In this document: positions 12,390 through 52,618 of the stretch, piece after piece
Layout of the letters: each line of letters opens with the position of its first letter
Position numbering within the stretch: the stretch's first letter is position 1
Origin: Salidesulfovibrio onnuriiensis
Lineage (GTDB): Bacteria; Desulfobacterota; Desulfovibrionia; Desulfovibrionales; Desulfovibrionaceae
Length of the DNA: 64,000 nucleotides
NCBI RefSeq assembly: GCF_008001235.1
Contig: NZ_CP040751.1
Span: 2,401,001 to 2,465,000 of the forward strand
Reading direction: 5' to 3'
Program-made: the position numbers and the translations under genes
Notes under the pieces: generated by a model
What the model was told of the DNA's origin: nothing
Databases searched by the model: none
Seen by the model: the letters and a program-made list of their open reading frames with translations, nothing else

Positions 12390-14357
12390 ATGTCTCGAAT
12401 CACCATACAATCCATCAGTAAGGCCCATGGCGGCGACGCATTGTTCAGCGACCTCTCCTTCGAGGTGGTGCCGGGCATGCGGCTGGCCGTGGCCGGACCC
12501 AACGGCTGCGGCAAAAGTACACTCCTCAAGATCATTGCCGGAGCCGAGGAAGCGGACAGCGGCGTCATCAACATGGAGCGCGGCTCCCAGCTCGGCTATG
12601 TTGCCCAGGAATTTCATGAAGCCGATCTTTCCAGCAACCTGCTCGCGTGGGTGCTGACGGCCCTGCCGTCCTGGAACGAATTCTGGCGGGACTGGGAACA
12701 GGCCGTGGCCGAGAAGGACCAGACCAGAATCAATGTCCTTTCCCATAAACAGGCCGAATTCGAACAGAAGCACGGGTATAATCCGGACCACAAGGCCCGG
12801 ACCATTCTTTCGGGCCTCGGATTTTCCGAAGACGATTTTTTCAAGAACATCCGTGAACTTTCCGGCGGCTGGCGTGAACGCGCCAAGCTGGCTCGCGTAC
12901 TGTTGCAGGGCGCGGATGTCCTGCTTTTGGACGAGCCCACCAACCACCTGGACCTGGAAGCCGTGGAGTGGCTGGAAGAGTATCTGCTCAATTTCCGGGG
13001 CACCTTGCTTTTCGTGGCCCACGACCGGGTGTTCTTGAACCGGGTGGGAACCCACGTGTTGTTCCTGGGCCGGGGAAGGCCGCAGGTGCGTCGTGGCTCT
13101 TTTGACGAATTTCTGGAATGGGAGGCCGAAAATTCCCGCCAGCTGAACAAGGAAGTGGAGAAGCTTTCCAGTCGGATAGACCACGAGCAGGACTACATCC
13201 GCCGTTTCCGGGTTAAGGCGCGCAAGGCCGCCCAGGCCCAGAGCAAGATCAAGAAGGTGGAGAAGATGGAGGTTGAGCTCTCCAAGCTCAAGGAAACCCA
13301 GCTTCTGTCCCGGTCCGGAAAGACCCTGAACTTCAAGCTTCCCCAGCCCTCCCGAGGGGACAAGGTTGCCATTGCCGCCGTGGACCTGGAATTTGCCTAT
13401 GAAGGCGGCAGGAGCGTATGGCCCAGCCTCAACTTTCAGCTCTACAGGGGCAAGAAGATCGCCCTGGCCGCACCCAACGGGGCCGGGAAATCCACGCTTC
13501 TCAAGCTTCTTACCGGCGACCTGAAACCTTCCGCCGGCTACGTCAAGATCGGCAACAATACCAAGCTGGCCTATTTTAGCCAGCATCAGGCCGAGATCCT
13601 GGAGATCAACAATACGGTCATCGGCGAAATCCGGCGGTTGTGTGATCCCAAGTTGACCGAGGAACAGCTCATGAGCGTGCTCGGCCTGTTCCTGCTGGGC
13701 GAATCCTTTTTCGAACGCAAGGTCTCCGAACTGTCAGGTGGCGAGAAAAGCCGCCTGCTGCTGGCCAGCCTGTTCATGTCCGGCGCGAACCTGTTGGTGC
13801 TCGACGAACCCACCAACCATCTGGACATCGAATCCCGCGAGGGGCTTGTCCGGGCCCTGGGCGGGTATGATGGCACGTTGCTTTTTGTGGCCCACGACAG
13901 GTATCTTCTTTCGGAAGTGGCCGAGGAGGTCTGGTCGCTTACGGAAAAGGGCTTTGAGCATTTTCTGGGAGGATTTGCCCAGTATGACGCCAGCCGCAAA
14001 CAGGAAGATCCATGCGAGACTCCTTTTGGGGAAGAACCGGAAAAGCGCAAGCTCAGCAAGGAGGAAAAGCGGCGGCAGGCAGAGCTGCGCAACCAGCTTT
14101 ACCGCAAGCTCAAGCCCTTGAAGAGCGAGTACGAGAAGCTCGAGAAGGAACTGGAAAAGAATCTGGAAGAGCAGGGCGTGCTGGAAGAGAAGATGAACGA
14201 TCCCGCCACGTATGAGAAGCCGGAGGAGGCGCTCAAGCTTAACAGCCAGTATCGTGAGGTAGAGAGCTGGGTGGAGAACCTCATGGAACGCATGGCCGGA
14301 ATCGAGGCCGAGATGGATTCCATTCAGCGGGAACAGGAAGCCCTGGGAGAAGCATGA
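12390..14357 (+). CDS. ABC-F family ATPase (Uup-like)
   Basis: A 655-aa protein with two ABC domains in one chain and no transmembrane segment, the mark of ABC-F translation factors. Domain 1 has Walker A GPNGCGKST, signature LSGGWRERAKLA and Walker B LLLDEPTNHLDLE; domain 2 has APNGAGKST, LSGGEKSRLLLA and LVLDEPTNHLDIE. The linker between them (about residues 240-320) is Lys/Glu-rich helical, and residues 550-655 form a C-terminal coiled coil as in Uup. ABC-F proteins act at the ribosomal E site or, for Uup, also affect branched DNA. Resistance function is not indicated. It overlaps the downstream Nudix gene by 4 bp. Confidence 0.93.
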   Translation: MSRITIQSISKAHGGDALFSDLSFEVVPGMRLAVAGPNGCGKSTLLKIIAGAEEADSGVINMERGSQLGYVAQEFHEADLSSNLLAWVLTALPSWNEFWRDWEQAVAEKDQTRINVLSHKQAEFEQKHGYNPDHKARTILSGLGFSEDDFFKNIRELSGGWRERAKLARVLLQGADVLLLDEPTNHLDLEAVEWLEEYLLNFRGTLLFVAHDRVFLNRVGTHVLFLGRGRPQVRRGSFDEFLEWEAENSRQLNKEVEKLSSRIDHEQDYIRRFRVKARKAAQAQSKIKKVEKMEVELSKLKETQLLSRSGKTLNFKLPQPSRGDKVAIAAVDLEFAYEGGRSVWPSLNFQLYRGKKIALAAPNGAGKSTLLKLLTGDLKPSAGYVKIGNNTKLAYFSQHQAEILEINNTVIGEIRRLCDPKLTEEQLMSVLGLFLLGESFFERKVSELSGGEKSRLLLASLFMSGANLLVLDEPTNHLDIESREGLVRALGGYDGTLLFVAHDRYLLSEVAEEVWSLTEKGFEHFLGGFAQYDASRKQEDPCETPFGEEPEKRKLSKEEKRRQAELRNQLYRKLKPLKSEYEKLEKELEKNLEEQGVLEEKMNDPATYEKPEEALKLNSQYREVESWVENLMERMAGIEAEMDSIQREQEALGEA

Positions 14358-48828: not shown

Positions 48829-48939
48829 ATGAATCATGTCTTTCGAATCACAGCTTTTGCCGCCCTGTTGACGGTGGCCCTTGAGAAGAACGCACTGGCC
48901 GCAGGTGAATCCTCGGGGGGGCGAGCATGTTGGACATGA
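48829..48939 (+). CDS. signal-peptide-like fragment, probable 5' part of the Tim44-like gene
   Basis: A 36-codon frame, MNHVFRITAFAALLTVAL...NALAAGESSGG, is a classical signal peptide ending in an ALAA cleavage site. It runs through seven G (48915-48921) and stops at 48939, overlapping the Tim44-like start at 48927. One extra G in that run would fuse it in frame with the next gene. It has no good ribosome binding site (TAGGTG only). Confidence 0.5.
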   Translation: MNHVFRITAFAALLTVALEKNALAAGESSGGRACWT

Positions 48940-49529
48940 TTCTGCTCGGTCTGGTGATTTTTCTGGTATTTCGTTTTTTCCGTCGCCGTTCGGGGCGCTG
49001 GTTCGGGCAGGATGACGATTTCACGACGAATGGCCGCCAGGATTCGTCCTCCGGGGTGACTCGGCCGCAGGATCGGCATGAACAGGCCCGGGCCATGTGG
49101 GAAATGCTGAGCGATGATCCGGCCCGAGGCGATGCGCGTCAGCAAATAAGCTCCCGGTCCGGTTTTGACGAATCGGAATTTCTGGAGGGGGCCAAAATGT
49201 TTTACAGCCGTTTTCAGGAGGCCCGGGATGCCGGTGACTGGGATGTCATTGAAGACTTCATCGCCCCCGGCCTGCTGGCCGACCTGAAGCGGGATTCCGT
49301 AACGGCCGATGCGGTCCAGACCGAAATCATGCTTCTGGATGCCAAGGTCATGGACGTTCAGTCCCGGGAGGGCAGGACCGACGTGACCGTGTTTTTCGAT
49401 GCCCTGATGCGCCGGGGGGCTTCCGGCGAACAGGAAGTGAGCGAGCGGACCGCCTGGGAATTCTCCCGGCCGGACCGCGATCCCGACGCCCTGTGGGTGT
49501 TGGAGGGGATCAACAAGATCGATCATTGA
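48927..49529 (+). CDS. Tim44-like domain membrane protein
   Basis: As read, a 200-aa protein: N-terminal membrane helix (MLDMILLGLVIFLVFRFF), a basic and disordered linker, and a Tim44-like domain from about residue 70 (EGAKMFYSRFQEARDAGDWDVIEDFIAPGLLADLK). Bacterial Tim44-like proteins are usually secreted or membrane-bound with unknown roles. In those proteins a signal peptide normally comes before the helix, which matches the fragment at 48829-48939 in another frame. The methyltransferase gene starts 41 bp downstream. Confidence 0.82.
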   Translation: MLDMILLGLVIFLVFRFFRRRSGRWFGQDDDFTTNGRQDSSSGVTRPQDRHEQARAMWEMLSDDPARGDARQQISSRSGFDESEFLEGAKMFYSRFQEARDAGDWDVIEDFIAPGLLADLKRDSVTADAVQTEIMLLDAKVMDVQSREGRTDVTVFFDALMRRGASGEQEVSERTAWEFSRPDRDPDALWVLEGINKIDH

Positions 49530-49570: not shown

Positions 49571-50290
49571 GTGCCCAAGATCAGGTATGATCTGGACCAG
49601 CCCATGGGGAAGCTCCTGGAGTTGGCCGGAAACAAGTTTGGTGAGGTTTGTTTTGAAACGGTGACCATCGGCAACATGTCGTTGGATATCCTTCAGATCA
49701 AGGACATGCCCAGGTACATCGAGAAGCTGGTGGGCAGCGCCAAGCCCGGGAAGAGTGTCGAACTTCCCCTGTGGGCGAAAATATGGCCGTCCTGTCTTTT
49801 CCTCGGCTTCTTCCTGCAGCAGTTTCCTTTCAAGCCCGAGGATGAACTGCTTGAAGTCGGGGCCGGGGTTGCGGTCATCGGTTTGGTCGCCGCCAAGCGC
49901 GGTCTTCATGTGACGGTCTCGGACCTGGAAGACGATGCCCTGCTGTTCGCACGCATCAATGCCTTGAAAAACGGCGTTGAAGACAAAATGGACATTGCCA
50001 AGGCTGATTTCACCAAAGACTCGCTGGGCAGACGTTTCGATCACATCATCGGCTGCGAGGTCCTCTACAATGAAGCCACGTATGAGCCGCTTGCCGATTT
50101 TCTGGTGGACCATCTGGCGGAGCGGGCGGACTCCGAAGTAATCTTGGCCATGGACCGCAAGCGTGAGGGCCGAGCCTTTTTCAATCGCGCCAAGGGTACA
50201 TTCGGCATCATGCGCAAGGATTTCAGTTTTACTGACAAGGATTCCGGCGAAGAGCAGTTCATTAACCTTTTCCGGATGAGAAGGTCCTAG
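49571..50290 (+). CDS. METTL21-like SAM-dependent methyltransferase
   Basis: A 239-aa class I methyltransferase. The start is a GTG at 49571 after GAGGG. LPLWAKIWPSCLFLGFFLQQ precedes motif I LLEVGAGVAVIGLVAAKRG; motif II is VTVSDLEDDALLFARINAL; HIIGCEVLYNEATYEPLADFL is the position of the D-x-x-Y-like motif of METTL21/Methyltransf_16 protein lysine methyltransferases. The preceding W(A)xIWPS is also family-typical. The stop codon abuts the ATG of the YcaO gene (TAGATG), so the two are cotranslated. Protein methylation is inferred from family resemblance; small-molecule substrates are not excluded. Confidence 0.87.
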   Translation: MPKIRYDLDQPMGKLLELAGNKFGEVCFETVTIGNMSLDILQIKDMPRYIEKLVGSAKPGKSVELPLWAKIWPSCLFLGFFLQQFPFKPEDELLEVGAGVAVIGLVAAKRGLHVTVSDLEDDALLFARINALKNGVEDKMDIAKADFTKDSLGRRFDHIIGCEVLYNEATYEPLADFLVDHLAERADSEVILAMDRKREGRAFFNRAKGTFGIMRKDFSFTDKDSGEEQFINLFRMRRS

Positions 50291-52021
50291 ATGATACAGC
50301 TACGGGATTGCTGCAAGGCGTATACGGTGGATCAGGACAAGGCGTCCGATCCGGTGGATACGGTCAGACGGGTCAAGGCGCTTCTGGATTCCAAATGCGA
50401 CGGCGTGCTGGCCGAAACGGACCGGGTGGATACCGGAAGGCTCGGCATTCCGGTGTTTGTCAGCAAATGTGGGCCGCGCGCCGCAGAGGTCATGCCCACG
50501 CGCAAGCAGATGGGCAAGGGCGCTTCTCCCGAGCAGGCCGAGGCCTCCGCGCTCATGGAGCTGGTGGAGCGATACAGTTATTTCAGCTTCTGGGCCGAAG
50601 ACGCCAATTTCGAGGAGATGACCTGGAGCCAAGCCAAGGCCAAATGGCCGGAGCAGCTTATGGGTATCGGCCAGATCATGCGTTCCGTGGAAGATGATTT
50701 GCCACCGGGACAGGCTGAACGGCTCATGGACCTTGTACGCTGGAAGTTCCACCCGGCCTTCAATCTTGTCAGCGAGCGGGAAGAATATGTGCCGCTGGAT
50801 TGGTTCAAGAAGTTGAATGAGTTCAACGGGTCTTCCGCCGGGAATACCTTTGAGGAATCCATATTTCAGGGGGGCTGCGAATTGGTGGAACGCCATGTTT
50901 GCGCCCTGATCGATCGCAACCGTCCGGAATTGCCCACCATTGACCTCGATGCCTGCGACGATCCGGTCTTTCAACGGTTGGTCCGTTGTTTCCGGGAAAA
51001 CGGCATCAACCTTATTCTCAAGGATTTTTCGTCTGGGTTTCCCGTGCCCACCATTGGGGCCGTTGCCTGGGACCAGAAAACTTTCCCGGCGCTGAGCGAG
51101 ATCGTGTTCACTGCGGGAACAGCCGCTTCGCCCGTCAAGGCTGCGGCCCGGGCGTTGACCGAGGTTGCCCAGTTGGCCGGTGATTTCGAGACTAGCAGGG
51201 TTTATGAGGCCTCCGGGCTTTCCAAGTTCACCTCGCTGGATCAGATCGAATGGCTGAAGGCGGGGCCGGTTGTGAGCCTGGATTCGCTTCCCTCGGTGGA
51301 GGACAGTAATATCCTCAACGAACTGAAGGCCTTTGCTGGCGGATTGCTGGATAAGGGATTCGCCGCGTACAGCGTCGACACCAGCCATCCCGAGCTGGGA
51401 GTGACCGCCAACTACAACTTCGTGCCCGGTTTTGATTTTCGGGAGCGCACTCCGCATCGGAGCATAGGGCTTTTCGTTGGTCGTATTCTGGCCGAGGAAT
51501 CCGCTTTTGACGAGGCGTTGGAAGGCCTTGACGTTCTGGAGGACGTCTATCCGGACGCCTATTTTATTCCTTTTTTCCGGGGGCTGCTGGCCTTGCGCAT
51601 GCAGGATCCCGTGTTTGCGGAACTCATGTTCGAGGAGGCCGAGCCCTTGCAGCCGGCCGACCAGGAGAGGGCGCTGACCGCCTTTTATCGTGCCTATGCT
51701 CTTTCTCTGCAGGAGGATACGGATTGGAACGGCCTGATTGGGCATCTCGACAGGGCCGTGTCCCTGGATGGCGAGGTGAAGGAGTTCTTCAACCTTCGCG
51801 GGGTGGCGCATTTCAAGTCCGGAAGGTATGGCGATGCCGCACGTGATTTTCAGGAGTCGTTGAATATCGACAGCGGATCCCCCGAGGATCTCGCCAACCT
51901 CGGCCTGTGCCACAAGTTCATGGGCAATCGCGATGAGGCGGTGGATTACCTGGGGGCAGCGCTCAAGCTGGATCCGTCTCTGGGCTATGCCCGCGAACAT
52001 TACCGGGAACTGATGGAATAG
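50291..52021 (+). CDS. YcaO domain protein with C-terminal TPRs
   Basis: A 576-aa protein. Residues 1-385 are YcaO: GKGASPEQAEASALMELVER (75-94) and SSAGNTFEESIFQGGCELVER (181-201) carry the ATP/Mg-binding Ser, Glu and Arg, and AGTAASPVKAAARALTEVAQ (275-294) is the next family motif; LGVTANYNFVPG ends the domain. Residues 390-576 contain about four TPRs (for example VKEFFNLRGVAHFKSGRYGDAARDF). YcaO enzymes activate backbone amides with ATP to make azolines, thioamides or amidines, or act in RimO methylthiolation. No TfuA, azoline oxidase or short precursor gene is seen nearby. dsrC begins 225 bp downstream. Confidence 0.92.
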   Translation: MIQLRDCCKAYTVDQDKASDPVDTVRRVKALLDSKCDGVLAETDRVDTGRLGIPVFVSKCGPRAAEVMPTRKQMGKGASPEQAEASALMELVERYSYFSFWAEDANFEEMTWSQAKAKWPEQLMGIGQIMRSVEDDLPPGQAERLMDLVRWKFHPAFNLVSEREEYVPLDWFKKLNEFNGSSAGNTFEESIFQGGCELVERHVCALIDRNRPELPTIDLDACDDPVFQRLVRCFRENGINLILKDFSSGFPVPTIGAVAWDQKTFPALSEIVFTAGTAASPVKAAARALTEVAQLAGDFETSRVYEASGLSKFTSLDQIEWLKAGPVVSLDSLPSVEDSNILNELKAFAGGLLDKGFAAYSVDTSHPELGVTANYNFVPGFDFRERTPHRSIGLFVGRILAEESAFDEALEGLDVLEDVYPDAYFIPFFRGLLALRMQDPVFAELMFEEAEPLQPADQERALTAFYRAYALSLQEDTDWNGLIGHLDRAVSLDGEVKEFFNLRGVAHFKSGRYGDAARDFQESLNIDSGSPEDLANLGLCHKFMGNRDEAVDYLGAALKLDPSLGYAREHYRELME

Positions 52022-52087
52022 GATATGTTGCCGGGGACTTGCGTTTGCCGCGAATTTTTGCAGGCAGGCCCCGGGTGAGCCCCGTGG

Positions 52088-52117
52088 TTGACAAGCCCGG
52101 GGTTGTGAAAGTATGGT
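52088..52117 (+). promoter_or_regulatory. promoter of dsrC
   Basis: A perfect TTGACA (52088-52093), an 18-bp spacer and TATGGT (52112-52117). The inverted repeat CCCCGGG (52069-52075) and CCCGGGG (52096-52102) brackets the -35 box and could be an operator. Transcription would begin near 52124. Confidence 0.6.
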
Positions 52118-52123
52118 CCCCAT

Positions 52124-52206
52124 CTGAGTTCCTCAGTGGATTCTGAGCTGAACATGAACAGCGGATAGCTGTTTTATGGATAAGGGTGGTTTCATTGTTT
52201 GAAACC
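52124..52206 (+). promoter_or_regulatory. structured leader of dsrC
   Basis: The predicted 5' UTR of about 120 nt contains three perfect small hairpins: CTGAG TTC CTCAG at 52124-52136, right at the expected transcript start; AACAGC GGATA GCTGTT at 52157-52173; and GGTTTC ATTGTTT GAAACC at 52188-52206. The first could protect the 5' end of a highly abundant mRNA. No ligand-binding class is recognised. Confidence 0.45.
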
Positions 52207-52246
52207 AGTTTAAATGTATCCCGTATTCCGTAACAGGAGGAATCAA

Positions 52247-52564
52247 ATGGCTGTTGTCGAATTCCAGGGCAAACAATTTGAAGTTGATGAAGATGGTTTC
52301 CTGCTCCAGTTTGACAGCTGGAGCCCTGAGTGGGTTGACTTCGTGAAAGAATCCGAAGGCATCAAGGAACTCACTGATGACCATCAGAAGGTTATCGACT
52401 TCCTGCAGGACTACTACAAGAAGAACGGTATCGCACCGATGGTTCGTATCCTTTCCAAGGTTACCGGCTTCAAGCTGAAGCAGATCTACGAACTGTTCCC
52501 GTCCGGACCGGGTAAGGGAGCCTGTAAGATGGCCGGCCTGCCCAAGCCCACTGGCTGCGTTTAA
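52247..52564 (+). CDS. dsrC: DsrC, sulfite reductase-associated sulfur carrier
   Basis: A 105-aa protein. AACAGGAGGAATCAA gives a very strong ribosome binding site. It has the DsrC/TusE fold (VEFQGKQFEVDEDGFL; VIDFLQDYYKKNGIAP; IYELFPSGPGKGACKMAGLPKP) and the flexible C-terminal arm with both functional cysteines: ACKMAG (CysB) and the penultimate TGCV (CysA), 11 residues apart. DsrC is the substrate of dissimilatory sulfite reductase, leaving with a trisulfide that DsrMKJOP reduces. As in other Desulfovibrio it lies away from dsrAB. It has its own promoter and terminator. Confidence 0.98.
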   Translation: MAVVEFQGKQFEVDEDGFLLQFDSWSPEWVDFVKESEGIKELTDDHQKVIDFLQDYYKKNGIAPMVRILSKVTGFKLKQIYELFPSGPGKGACKMAGLPKPTGCV

Positions 52565-52587
52565 TACGCAAGCCGTTGGAAAACGAG

Positions 52588-52618
52588 GGCGGAAGTTTTT
52601 TGCTTCCGCCTTTTTTTT
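52588..52618 (+). terminator. intrinsic terminator of dsrC
   Basis: GGCGGAAG / CTTCCGCC stem with a T-rich loop, then eight T. Very strong, as expected after an abundant transcript. Confidence 0.95.

Follow-up and report, generated by a model that had tools for sequence, protein, structure and literature searches.

A YcaO-TPR protein that follows one DsrC lineage, encoded between a METTL21-like methyltransferase gene and dsrC, as a candidate DsrC-modifying enzyme

Background

Besides the thioamide of ribosomal protein uL16, that of methyl-coenzyme M reductase (MCR) is the sole other protein thioamide described as characterized, and further substrates of YcaO proteins have been suggested to remain (PMC13063428). 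The Escherichia coli YcaO, which contains a 150-residue tetratricopeptide repeat (TPR) domain, thioamidates uL16 in vivo and, with sulfide at a non-physiological concentration, in vitro; the same source states that E. coli encodes no TfuA and that thioamides are readily misassigned as oxidation (PMC13063428). The thioglycine of McrA is reported to be dispensable for viability, although cells without it grow poorly when the temperature is raised or when the substrate yields little energy (PMC5589413). Desulfovibrio vulgaris has its own YcaO-TPR protein, DVU2210 (PMC7774982, PMC8319347). Here we describe a locus of Salidesulfovibrio onnuriiensis (Desulfovibrionaceae) in which a YcaO-TPR gene lies between a gene for a METTL21-like methyltransferase (MT) and dsrC. 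The locus is part of a stretch of 64,000 nucleotides (contig NZ_CP040751.1 of GCF_008001235.1, positions 2,401,001 to 2,465,000), the whole of which is called the window below.

YcaO-TPR follows one lineage of DsrC, and we consider the chances about even that DsrC is thioamidated by this protein and that MT methylates a lysine of DsrC or of a DsrC partner. A narrower version, held tentatively and rated somewhat short of even, is that a backbone thioamide is installed at the hinge of the DsrC arm by this lineage-specific YcaO-TPR, beside a trimethyl-lysine made by the coupled MT, and that the +16 shift recorded in 2011 and read as oxidation was this thioamide. The open PMC literature, beyond whose scope subscription papers lie, yielded no paper joining YcaO with DsrC, DsrC with thioamidation, or YcaO and thioamidation with sulfite reductase.

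Distribution and gene order

Among 297 genomes of the phylum, YcaO-TPR was found in 108, DsrA in 144, DsrC in 151 and AprA in 120, where absence means no match in a genome search with a loose first look and a limited number of scored candidates, and where many genomes are drafts. All YcaO genomes except two, which are 62% and 76% complete, also have DsrA (106 of 108). The presence of YcaO divides according to the type of DsrC. YcaO occurs in 103 of the 106 genomes with DsrA and a window-like DsrC (at least 65% identity to that of the window), or 101 of 106 without G096 and G192, which were counted on a shorter second-type YcaO alone; in none of the 32 genomes with DsrA and a divergent DsrC (48-64% identity); and in none of the 141 genomes with neither DsrA nor DsrC. 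Four genomes (G114, G169, G231 and G349) have no listed value for DsrC identity; they were coded 0 at first and are left out of the 48-64% group; one of these, G169 (76% complete), has YcaO. Of the 59 genomes in the family of the window, 42 have a match to YcaO-TPR and 57 a match to DsrC.

Genomes with both AprA and DsrA split in the same way, YcaO being present in 99 of 101 with window-like DsrC vs 0 of 12 with divergent DsrC; therefore, what YcaO follows is a single lineage of DsrC (or of DsrAB-DsrC) rather than sulfate reduction as a whole. This co-occurrence holds also where the genes are unlinked. The divergent-DsrC group likely includes sulfate reducers, given these 12 genomes and the presence of DsrD in two of the four operons of the group that were tested (L289 and L293, not L297 or L299). 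YcaO as a general marker of sulfate reduction was rejected because all 12 of these genomes lack it.

The physical linkage of YcaO and dsrC was assessed in 120 fetched YcaO loci, 40 from the family of the window and 80 from 36 other families (37 families in all), with adjacency defined as the same strand and a gap of less than 700 bp. dsrC adjoins YcaO in 44 of the 120 loci, namely, 30 of 40 within the family and 14 of 80 elsewhere, the latter from eight families. Adjacency thus occurs in 9 of 37 families: dsrC comes after YcaO in eight of these (seven beyond the family of the window) and before YcaO in the ninth (f16, 6 of 6 loci). The existence of both orders suggests repeated formation or rebuilding of the pairing. 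In a further family, f93, YcaO and dsrC are one kilobase apart on the same strand. When the neighbours of YcaO are clustered openly, the DsrC cluster reaches the most families (nine); the next cluster (eight families) consists of a protein that we take to be of the PAS type, scattered over both strands and across +/-6.5 kb.

MT adjoins YcaO in 35 of the 40 window-family loci, with gaps ranging from a 4-base overlap to 123 bases, and many of these loci keep the MT-YcaO-dsrC triad while other neighbours found in the window are gone. Because the triad survives where other neighbours are lost and dsrC adjoins YcaO in both orders, the YcaO-dsrC adjacency exceeds chance. In 80 named loci of GTDB genomes, five of which lie too near a contig end to judge one of MT and dsrC, dsrC is adjacent in 42 and MT in 57, with dsrC but no MT in ten and MT but no dsrC in 22; the dsrC-adjacent loci come from, among others, Pseudodesulfovibrio, Humidesulfovibrio, Solidesulfovibrio, Desulfonatronum, Desulfonatronospira and Desulfohalobiaceae. 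A preliminary description of the window had asked for such a comparison of gene order and had named conservation in close relatives only as grounds for giving up its proposal. That possibility was rejected, as the triad outlasts changed flanks and the adjacency recurs across the 9 of 37 families; the recurrence concerns YcaO and dsrC, with no MT match by tblastn among the 80 loci from outside the family.

Several other neighbours of YcaO were observed in relatives. Where no YcaO-dsrC adjacency was seen, other sulfur genes at times lie near YcaO, as in the first two clusters below. In all 8 loci of one cluster (families f65, f39 and f29; L178:7252-7683, L278:1704-2138), a NIL-domain ferredoxin gene is the direct same-strand neighbour of YcaO-TPR, in some cases with genes nearby that are presumably MnmA-like. 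In 5 of 5 loci of another cluster (f49, f34 and f37; L103:5187-6026), an ATPase that we take to be LarE-like is encoded on the same strand some 1.3 kb 5' of YcaO-TPR; its Pfam matches are weak (NAD_synthase, QueC, Asn_synthase and no others), and it might supply sulfur. The shorter second-type YcaO (about 481-516 aa) lies close to dsrC in one genome (L278:10440-11897, with dsrC at 12401-12721) and, in another (L279:3189-4739), adjoins a divergent DsrC paralogue (2557-2928) whose arm lacks GPGKGAC and keeps both end cysteines; in L280 and L281, no dsrC was found within the fetched stretch. A search of viral contigs for YcaO gave 7 pattern matches, none of them confirmed.

The locus and its proteins

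The three genes are arranged head to tail on the + strand (Table 1). The TAG of MT (50288-50290) is followed immediately by the ATG of YcaO at 50291, and 225 bases separate YcaO from dsrC, whose start is preceded by AGGAGG; a longer dsrC open reading frame from 52214 is merely mechanical, and the start is taken at 52247. Given the 225-base gap, the promoter-like site (one found in the region vs 0.9 expected by shuffling, which is chance level) and the terminator-like stem, dsrC need not be on one transcript with the MT-YcaO pair. The layout given in the preliminary description (reading frames, strands, the TAGATG junction and dsrC as the next gene) was recovered unchanged from the sequence.

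Table 1. Features of the MT-YcaO-dsrC locus, in positions of the window
Feature	Positions	Strand	Basis
Methyltransf_16 (METTL21-like) protein methyltransferase, predicted, 239 aa, GTG start	49571..50290	+	PF10294, 46.1 bits (cut-off 21); fold
YcaO protein (576 aa) with a TPR domain at its C terminus; candidate enzyme for backbone modification of DsrC	50291..52021	+	PF02624, 203.5 bits (cut-off 25.7); TPRs
YcaO ATP motif SAGNTFEESIFQGGCELVER, residues 182-201	50834..50893	+	read from sequence; fits Sx6Ex3Qx3ExxER
All-helical TPR tail, residues 392-576	51464..52018	+	TPR_2 (47.6 bits, cut-off 27), TPR_1 and TPR_8 above cut-off; model helices 392-575
Promoter-like site TTGACA-18-TATGGT, 5' of dsrC	52088..52117	+	10/12 matches; count no more than shuffling gives
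dsrC, 105 aa, arm cysteines C93 and C104	52247..52564	+	PF04358, 126.7 bits (cut-off 24.9); TIGR03342, 120.9 bits (cut-off 53.5)
DsrC residues 77-90 (LKQIYELFPSGPGK), counterpart of the D. vulgaris +42/+16 peptide, proposed site of both marks	52475..52516	+	
Terminator-like stem 3' of dsrC	52585..52613	+	

Residues 74-381 of YcaO-TPR match PF02624, which places the protein in the YcaO superfamily. Its ATP motif agrees with the superfamily pattern Sx6-7Ex3Qx3ExxER (as defined in PMC7774982), and the motif residues E189, Q193, E197, E200 and R201 are invariant in 40 aligned sequences. The structure model (mean pLDDT 93.8) matches the folds of LynD, the M. jannaschii and M. kandleri YcaOs and the E. 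coli YcaO; together with the TPR profiles, its helical tail bears out the earlier statement that TPRs are fused to YcaO. Among NCBIfam models, the general YcaO domain model TIGR00702 alone was passed (92.4 bits, cut-off 75.65). The best-scoring specific model, TIGR03266 (McrA-glycine thioamidation), reached 112.9 bits against a cut-off of 365, the SagD-type TOMM cyclodehydratase model TIGR03604 80.5 against 219.25, and the E. coli-type YcaO model NF040716 47.8 against 700.

A YcaO-TfuA thioamidation pair is not present, as TfuA (PF07812) has no match anywhere in the S. onnuriiensis genome, whereas the positive control, M. acetivorans, gives a match; the absence of TfuA stated in the preliminary description thus extends to the whole genome. 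No precursor peptide or azoline oxidase was noticed among the neighbouring reading frames, which were scanned in part and without a dedicated search. A natural-product cluster was rejected on these grounds. uL16 was likewise rejected as the substrate of this YcaO: uL16 is regarded as universal in bacteria, YcaO-TPR is found in none of the 141 genomes lacking both DsrA and DsrC, and the NF040716 score is far below the cut-off.

By profile, fold and an acidic-x-x-aromatic motif, MT is a predicted METTL21-like protein-lysine methyltransferase. The best PDB sequence match is METTL21A (2.9e-8), and the AlphaFold model (pLDDT 95.9) has its best fold matches in the protein-lysine methyltransferases METTL21A, B, D and C (TM 0.62-0.68 by query length). 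In the METTL21 motif rule, E-x-x-Y can replace D-x-x-Y; E163 is present in 36 of 36 aligned MT sequences, E163-x-x-Y166 in 30 and Tyr or Phe at position 166 in 32.

Judged by both family profiles, the two arm cysteines and the best PDB match (2xsj_C, 1.8e-59), the dsrC product is a canonical DsrC. A second dsrC copy, 97% identical to that of the window, is located at G000:C1:3267348-3267662 (L324:1498-1815, minus strand), upstream of a gene that we take to be hypD-like. A second YcaO gene (561 aa, with a long N-terminal extension before the YcaO domain) lies about 66 kb upstream of the MT-YcaO-dsrC locus at G000:C1:2382762-2384447 (L002:1207-2892, minus strand). Directly 5' of MT, a Tim44-like protein is encoded at 48927-49529; among the fetched family loci, tblastn finds a Tim44-like gene beside MT only in some closer relatives.

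The DsrC arm and the published mass data

Proteins recovered in D. vulgaris pull-downs include DsrC, whose arm-base peptide LKEVYELFPSGPGK is listed as carrying trimethylation plus oxidation (PMC3125180). In Table 1 of that paper, LK*EVYELFPSGPGK appears as 'Trimethylation+Oxidation' in three bait sets (ApsA, CooH and RoO) and in no other form, and a second DsrC peptide, ESEGISDISPDHQK*IIDFLQDYYK, as trimethylated or acetylated, the accuracy attained by the authors being unable to separate the two (PMC3125180). LK*EVYELFPSGPGK corresponds to residues 77-90 of the window DsrC, at the base of the arm, and contains no Met, Trp or Cys; SADSIMWTVK*FR, in the same table, has both Met and Trp yet is listed without oxidation (PMC3125180). 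The computed difference between an O-to-S exchange (+15.977) and oxidation (+15.995) on LK*EVYELFPSGPGK is 10.9 ppm, and the precursor tolerance stated for protein identification is 100 ppm (PMC3125180); a thioamide plus trimethyl-lysine therefore fits the published record as well as the authors' oxidation label does. DVU2776 (DsrC) and DVU2210 are both named among the 24 high G-score genes of D. vulgaris in syntrophic evolution (PMC8319347). In the comparison of arm sequences, the DsrC paralogues in G075 and G176 were left out of the group counts, and G022, which had no YcaO match in the genome search, was counted as YcaO-positive because a 51-residue YcaO fragment stands next to its dsrC where the contig ends. 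A +42 shift on DsrC had reportedly been seen by Gaucher in 2008.

All 68 DsrC assigned to the YcaO-positive group have GPGKGACKM, with G87, P88, G89 and K90 invariant. Among 14 family genomes without YcaO, DsrC has K94R in five, G89A in two and K90R in two; such arms occur in L263, L268, L270, L271 and L274 and in none of the 68. Position 89 is Ala in 13 of 14 divergent DsrC. These differences lend weak support to a YcaO-DsrC link. In the DsrC tree, all 14 YcaO-lacking family members fall within one subclade of 21, which also holds seven YcaO-positive genomes. G89A was set aside as proof of co-variation, since Ala89 might go back to one event in the divergent group and the YcaO-lacking family members belong to one subclade.

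The proposal starts from gene content, the conserved adjacency of dsrC and YcaO in either order, the co-occurrence of YcaO with a single lineage of DsrC, the protein folds and the ATP motif and draws on the published +42 and +16 on DsrC peptides, the viable YcaO deletion and uL16 thioamidation by the E. coli YcaO; from these, we infer a substrate (DsrC), a chemistry (thioamidation), a residue, a target for MT and a physiological effect, as follows. YcaO-TPR would be an ATP-dependent protein-modifying enzyme with DsrC as its substrate. It would activate a backbone carbonyl at the arm base, within residues 77-90 and most likely in the G87-P88-G89 hinge, and the oxygen would be replaced by sulfur from free sulfide. 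As sulfate reducers make free sulfide in bulk, no TfuA would be needed. The arm, on which sulfur moves between sulfite reductase and the membrane, might be stiffened or tuned by the thioamide. In the family of the window and near relatives, MT would trimethylate K78 or K48 of DsrC or else a lysine in another protein of sulfate respiration.

Evidence against and competing explanations

A number of observations weigh against thioamidation of DsrC by YcaO-TPR. Among the 48 family genomes with a completeness of 90% or more and a contamination of 5% or less, ten lack YcaO (present in 38) although all 48 have DsrC. Conversely, YcaO occurs without a clear DsrC in G063, G198 and G244 (no match) and in G169 (weak match), genomes that are 76-93% complete, with 9% contamination in G198. 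The very small p values of the Fisher tests come from related genomes, with phylogeny left uncorrected. No YcaO-dsrC adjacency was seen in 28 of 37 families (some of the fetched stretches stop near a contig end), and three Nitratidesulfovibrio-type loci keep the MT-YcaO pair with dsrC elsewhere. Several YcaO-lacking family genomes keep GPGKGACKMAGL, and 7 of 7 fetched YcaO-lacking genomes outside the family with window-like DsrC keep GPGKGACKM. Whether MT is present or not, K78 is invariant and K48 almost invariant in every group, which makes their co-variation uninformative as a test of MT.

Further points concern MT and the proposed marks. MT is missing in 5 of the 40 window-family loci and in the ten named loci with YcaO-adjacent dsrC, and tblastn, applied to the loci and not genome-wide outside the family, did not find MT beside YcaO in the 80 loci of other families; hence, MT and YcaO are not always a pair. 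To our knowledge, the solved DsrAB-DsrC complexes have not been reported to contain a thioamide. The +16 on the DsrC peptide was called oxidation by the authors; ApsA and ApsB are also trimethylated in D. vulgaris, so MT may serve these proteins (PMC3125180). Carboxymethyl-lysine (+58.0055) is 22 ppm from the authors' assignment and is a live alternative for the published shift.

The genetics of DVU2210 points both ways. The deletion strain is reported to grow on sulfate at a rate similar to that of the wild type, which also counts against the proposal, and to ferment to higher density (PMC7774982). These results fit a mark that tunes DsrC rather than one that DsrC cannot do without, which falls short of proving the link, and thioamidation of DsrC leaves the molybdate phenotype unexplained. 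In a proposal by Zane and co-workers, a YcaO of the DVU2210 type activates molybdate (and perhaps a natural oxyanion) with ATP, and such an enzyme would have no role in protein modification. Molybdate resistance results when DVU2210 and sat are both lost, and complementation with DVU2210 restores sensitivity, whereas the S195R variant does not; E. coli carrying DVU2210 is, however, not sensitive to 10 mM molybdate in LC medium (all PMC7774982). This activity would not account for the tracking of one DsrC lineage either, and we regard this explanation as improbable.

An alternative that we consider unlikely is that YcaO-TPR modifies another protein of the same Dsr lineage (DsrA, DsrB or ApsAB), with dsrC merely a frequent neighbour. 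Co-occurrence cannot split DsrC from DsrAB, as YcaO is also missing from four of the five genomes that have window-like DsrC without DsrA, and the trimethylation of ApsA and ApsB agrees with this alternative. Nevertheless, the repeated neighbour, in two orders, is dsrC, and no DsrA or AprA cluster was recognised among the neighbour clusters listed; AprA is present in the 12 YcaO-lacking genomes with DsrA and divergent DsrC, and the published table lists +16 on DsrC and on no Aps peptide (PMC3125180). It appears rather unlikely that the published +42/+16 is an artefact (carboxymethyl-lysine or chance oxidation) and that YcaO-TPR performs other backbone chemistry or serves an unrecognised peptide. 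An azoline at C93 of DsrC would block the thiol required for the trisulfide, and the genome is without a TfuA match. The YcaO superfamily does also make azolines and amidines (PMC13063428), while the authors of the mass data report a trimethylation-diagnostic neutral loss of 59 Da and manually checked spectra, which may or may not include LK*EVYELFPSGPGK (PMC3125180). Finally, the neighbourhood could reflect co-expression or inheritance without a common substrate: dsrC has its own terminator-like stem and promoter-like site, and close relatives share much of the neighbourhood of the window. With the triad kept where flanks differ, the reverse order in f16 and co-occurrence also without linkage, we deem this highly improbable.

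Modification of DsrC by the pair, as put forward in the preliminary description, is accordingly the best-supported reading, given the adjacency in 9 of 37 families, the tracking of one DsrC lineage and the published +42/+16. It is supported in part, with the qualifications that MT does not always accompany YcaO, that the DVU2210 mutant grows like the wild type on sulfate, that dsrC is elsewhere in Nitratidesulfovibrio and that DsrC is a putative substrate.

Implications

If correct, thioamidation of DsrC would provide the third protein thioamide after those of MCR and uL16 and would place the same rare mark on key proteins of methanogenesis and sulfate reduction alike. It would change the understanding of arm mechanics, and, with E. 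coli commonly used to produce recombinant DsrC, such preparations would miss a native feature. DVU2210 and the neighbouring methyltransferase would gain native functions, and the lysine methylation reported in 2011 a candidate enzyme.

Comparison with known systems

The window YcaO-TPR is probably orthologous to DVU2210, which has the same two domains and an ATP motif, SAGNTEEESILQGSCELVER, one residue off that of N. liaohensis (PMC7774982, PMC8319347). The N. liaohensis YcaO is 57% identical to that of the window and has MT directly upstream. The differences are that dsrC is not beside the gene in that genus, to which D. vulgaris presumably belongs, and that the published role of DVU2210 is in molybdate sensitivity. 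MT resembles METTL21A-D in its Methyltransf_16 family, common fold and E-x-x-Y for D-x-x-Y but is bacterial, about 20% identical and translationally coupled to YcaO.

The methanogen YcaO that acts on the McrA glycine (PMC5589413) corresponds to the best-scoring NCBIfam model; its substrate, as DsrC would be, is a central component of anaerobic energy metabolism, and its mark is dispensable for viability. The window YcaO differs from it in the score far below the cut-off, the lack of TfuA, the TPR tail and the methyltransferase as a coupled neighbour. The E. coli YcaO is similar in being a stand-alone protein with a TPR domain and a similar overall length, in an organism without TfuA, with, as is proposed here, one conserved cellular protein as its target, and it was matched in the fold search (4q84-4q86). 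It is only about 18% identical to the window YcaO, its family model scores far below the cut-off, and its target is regarded as universal, whereas the window-type YcaO tracks one DsrC lineage.

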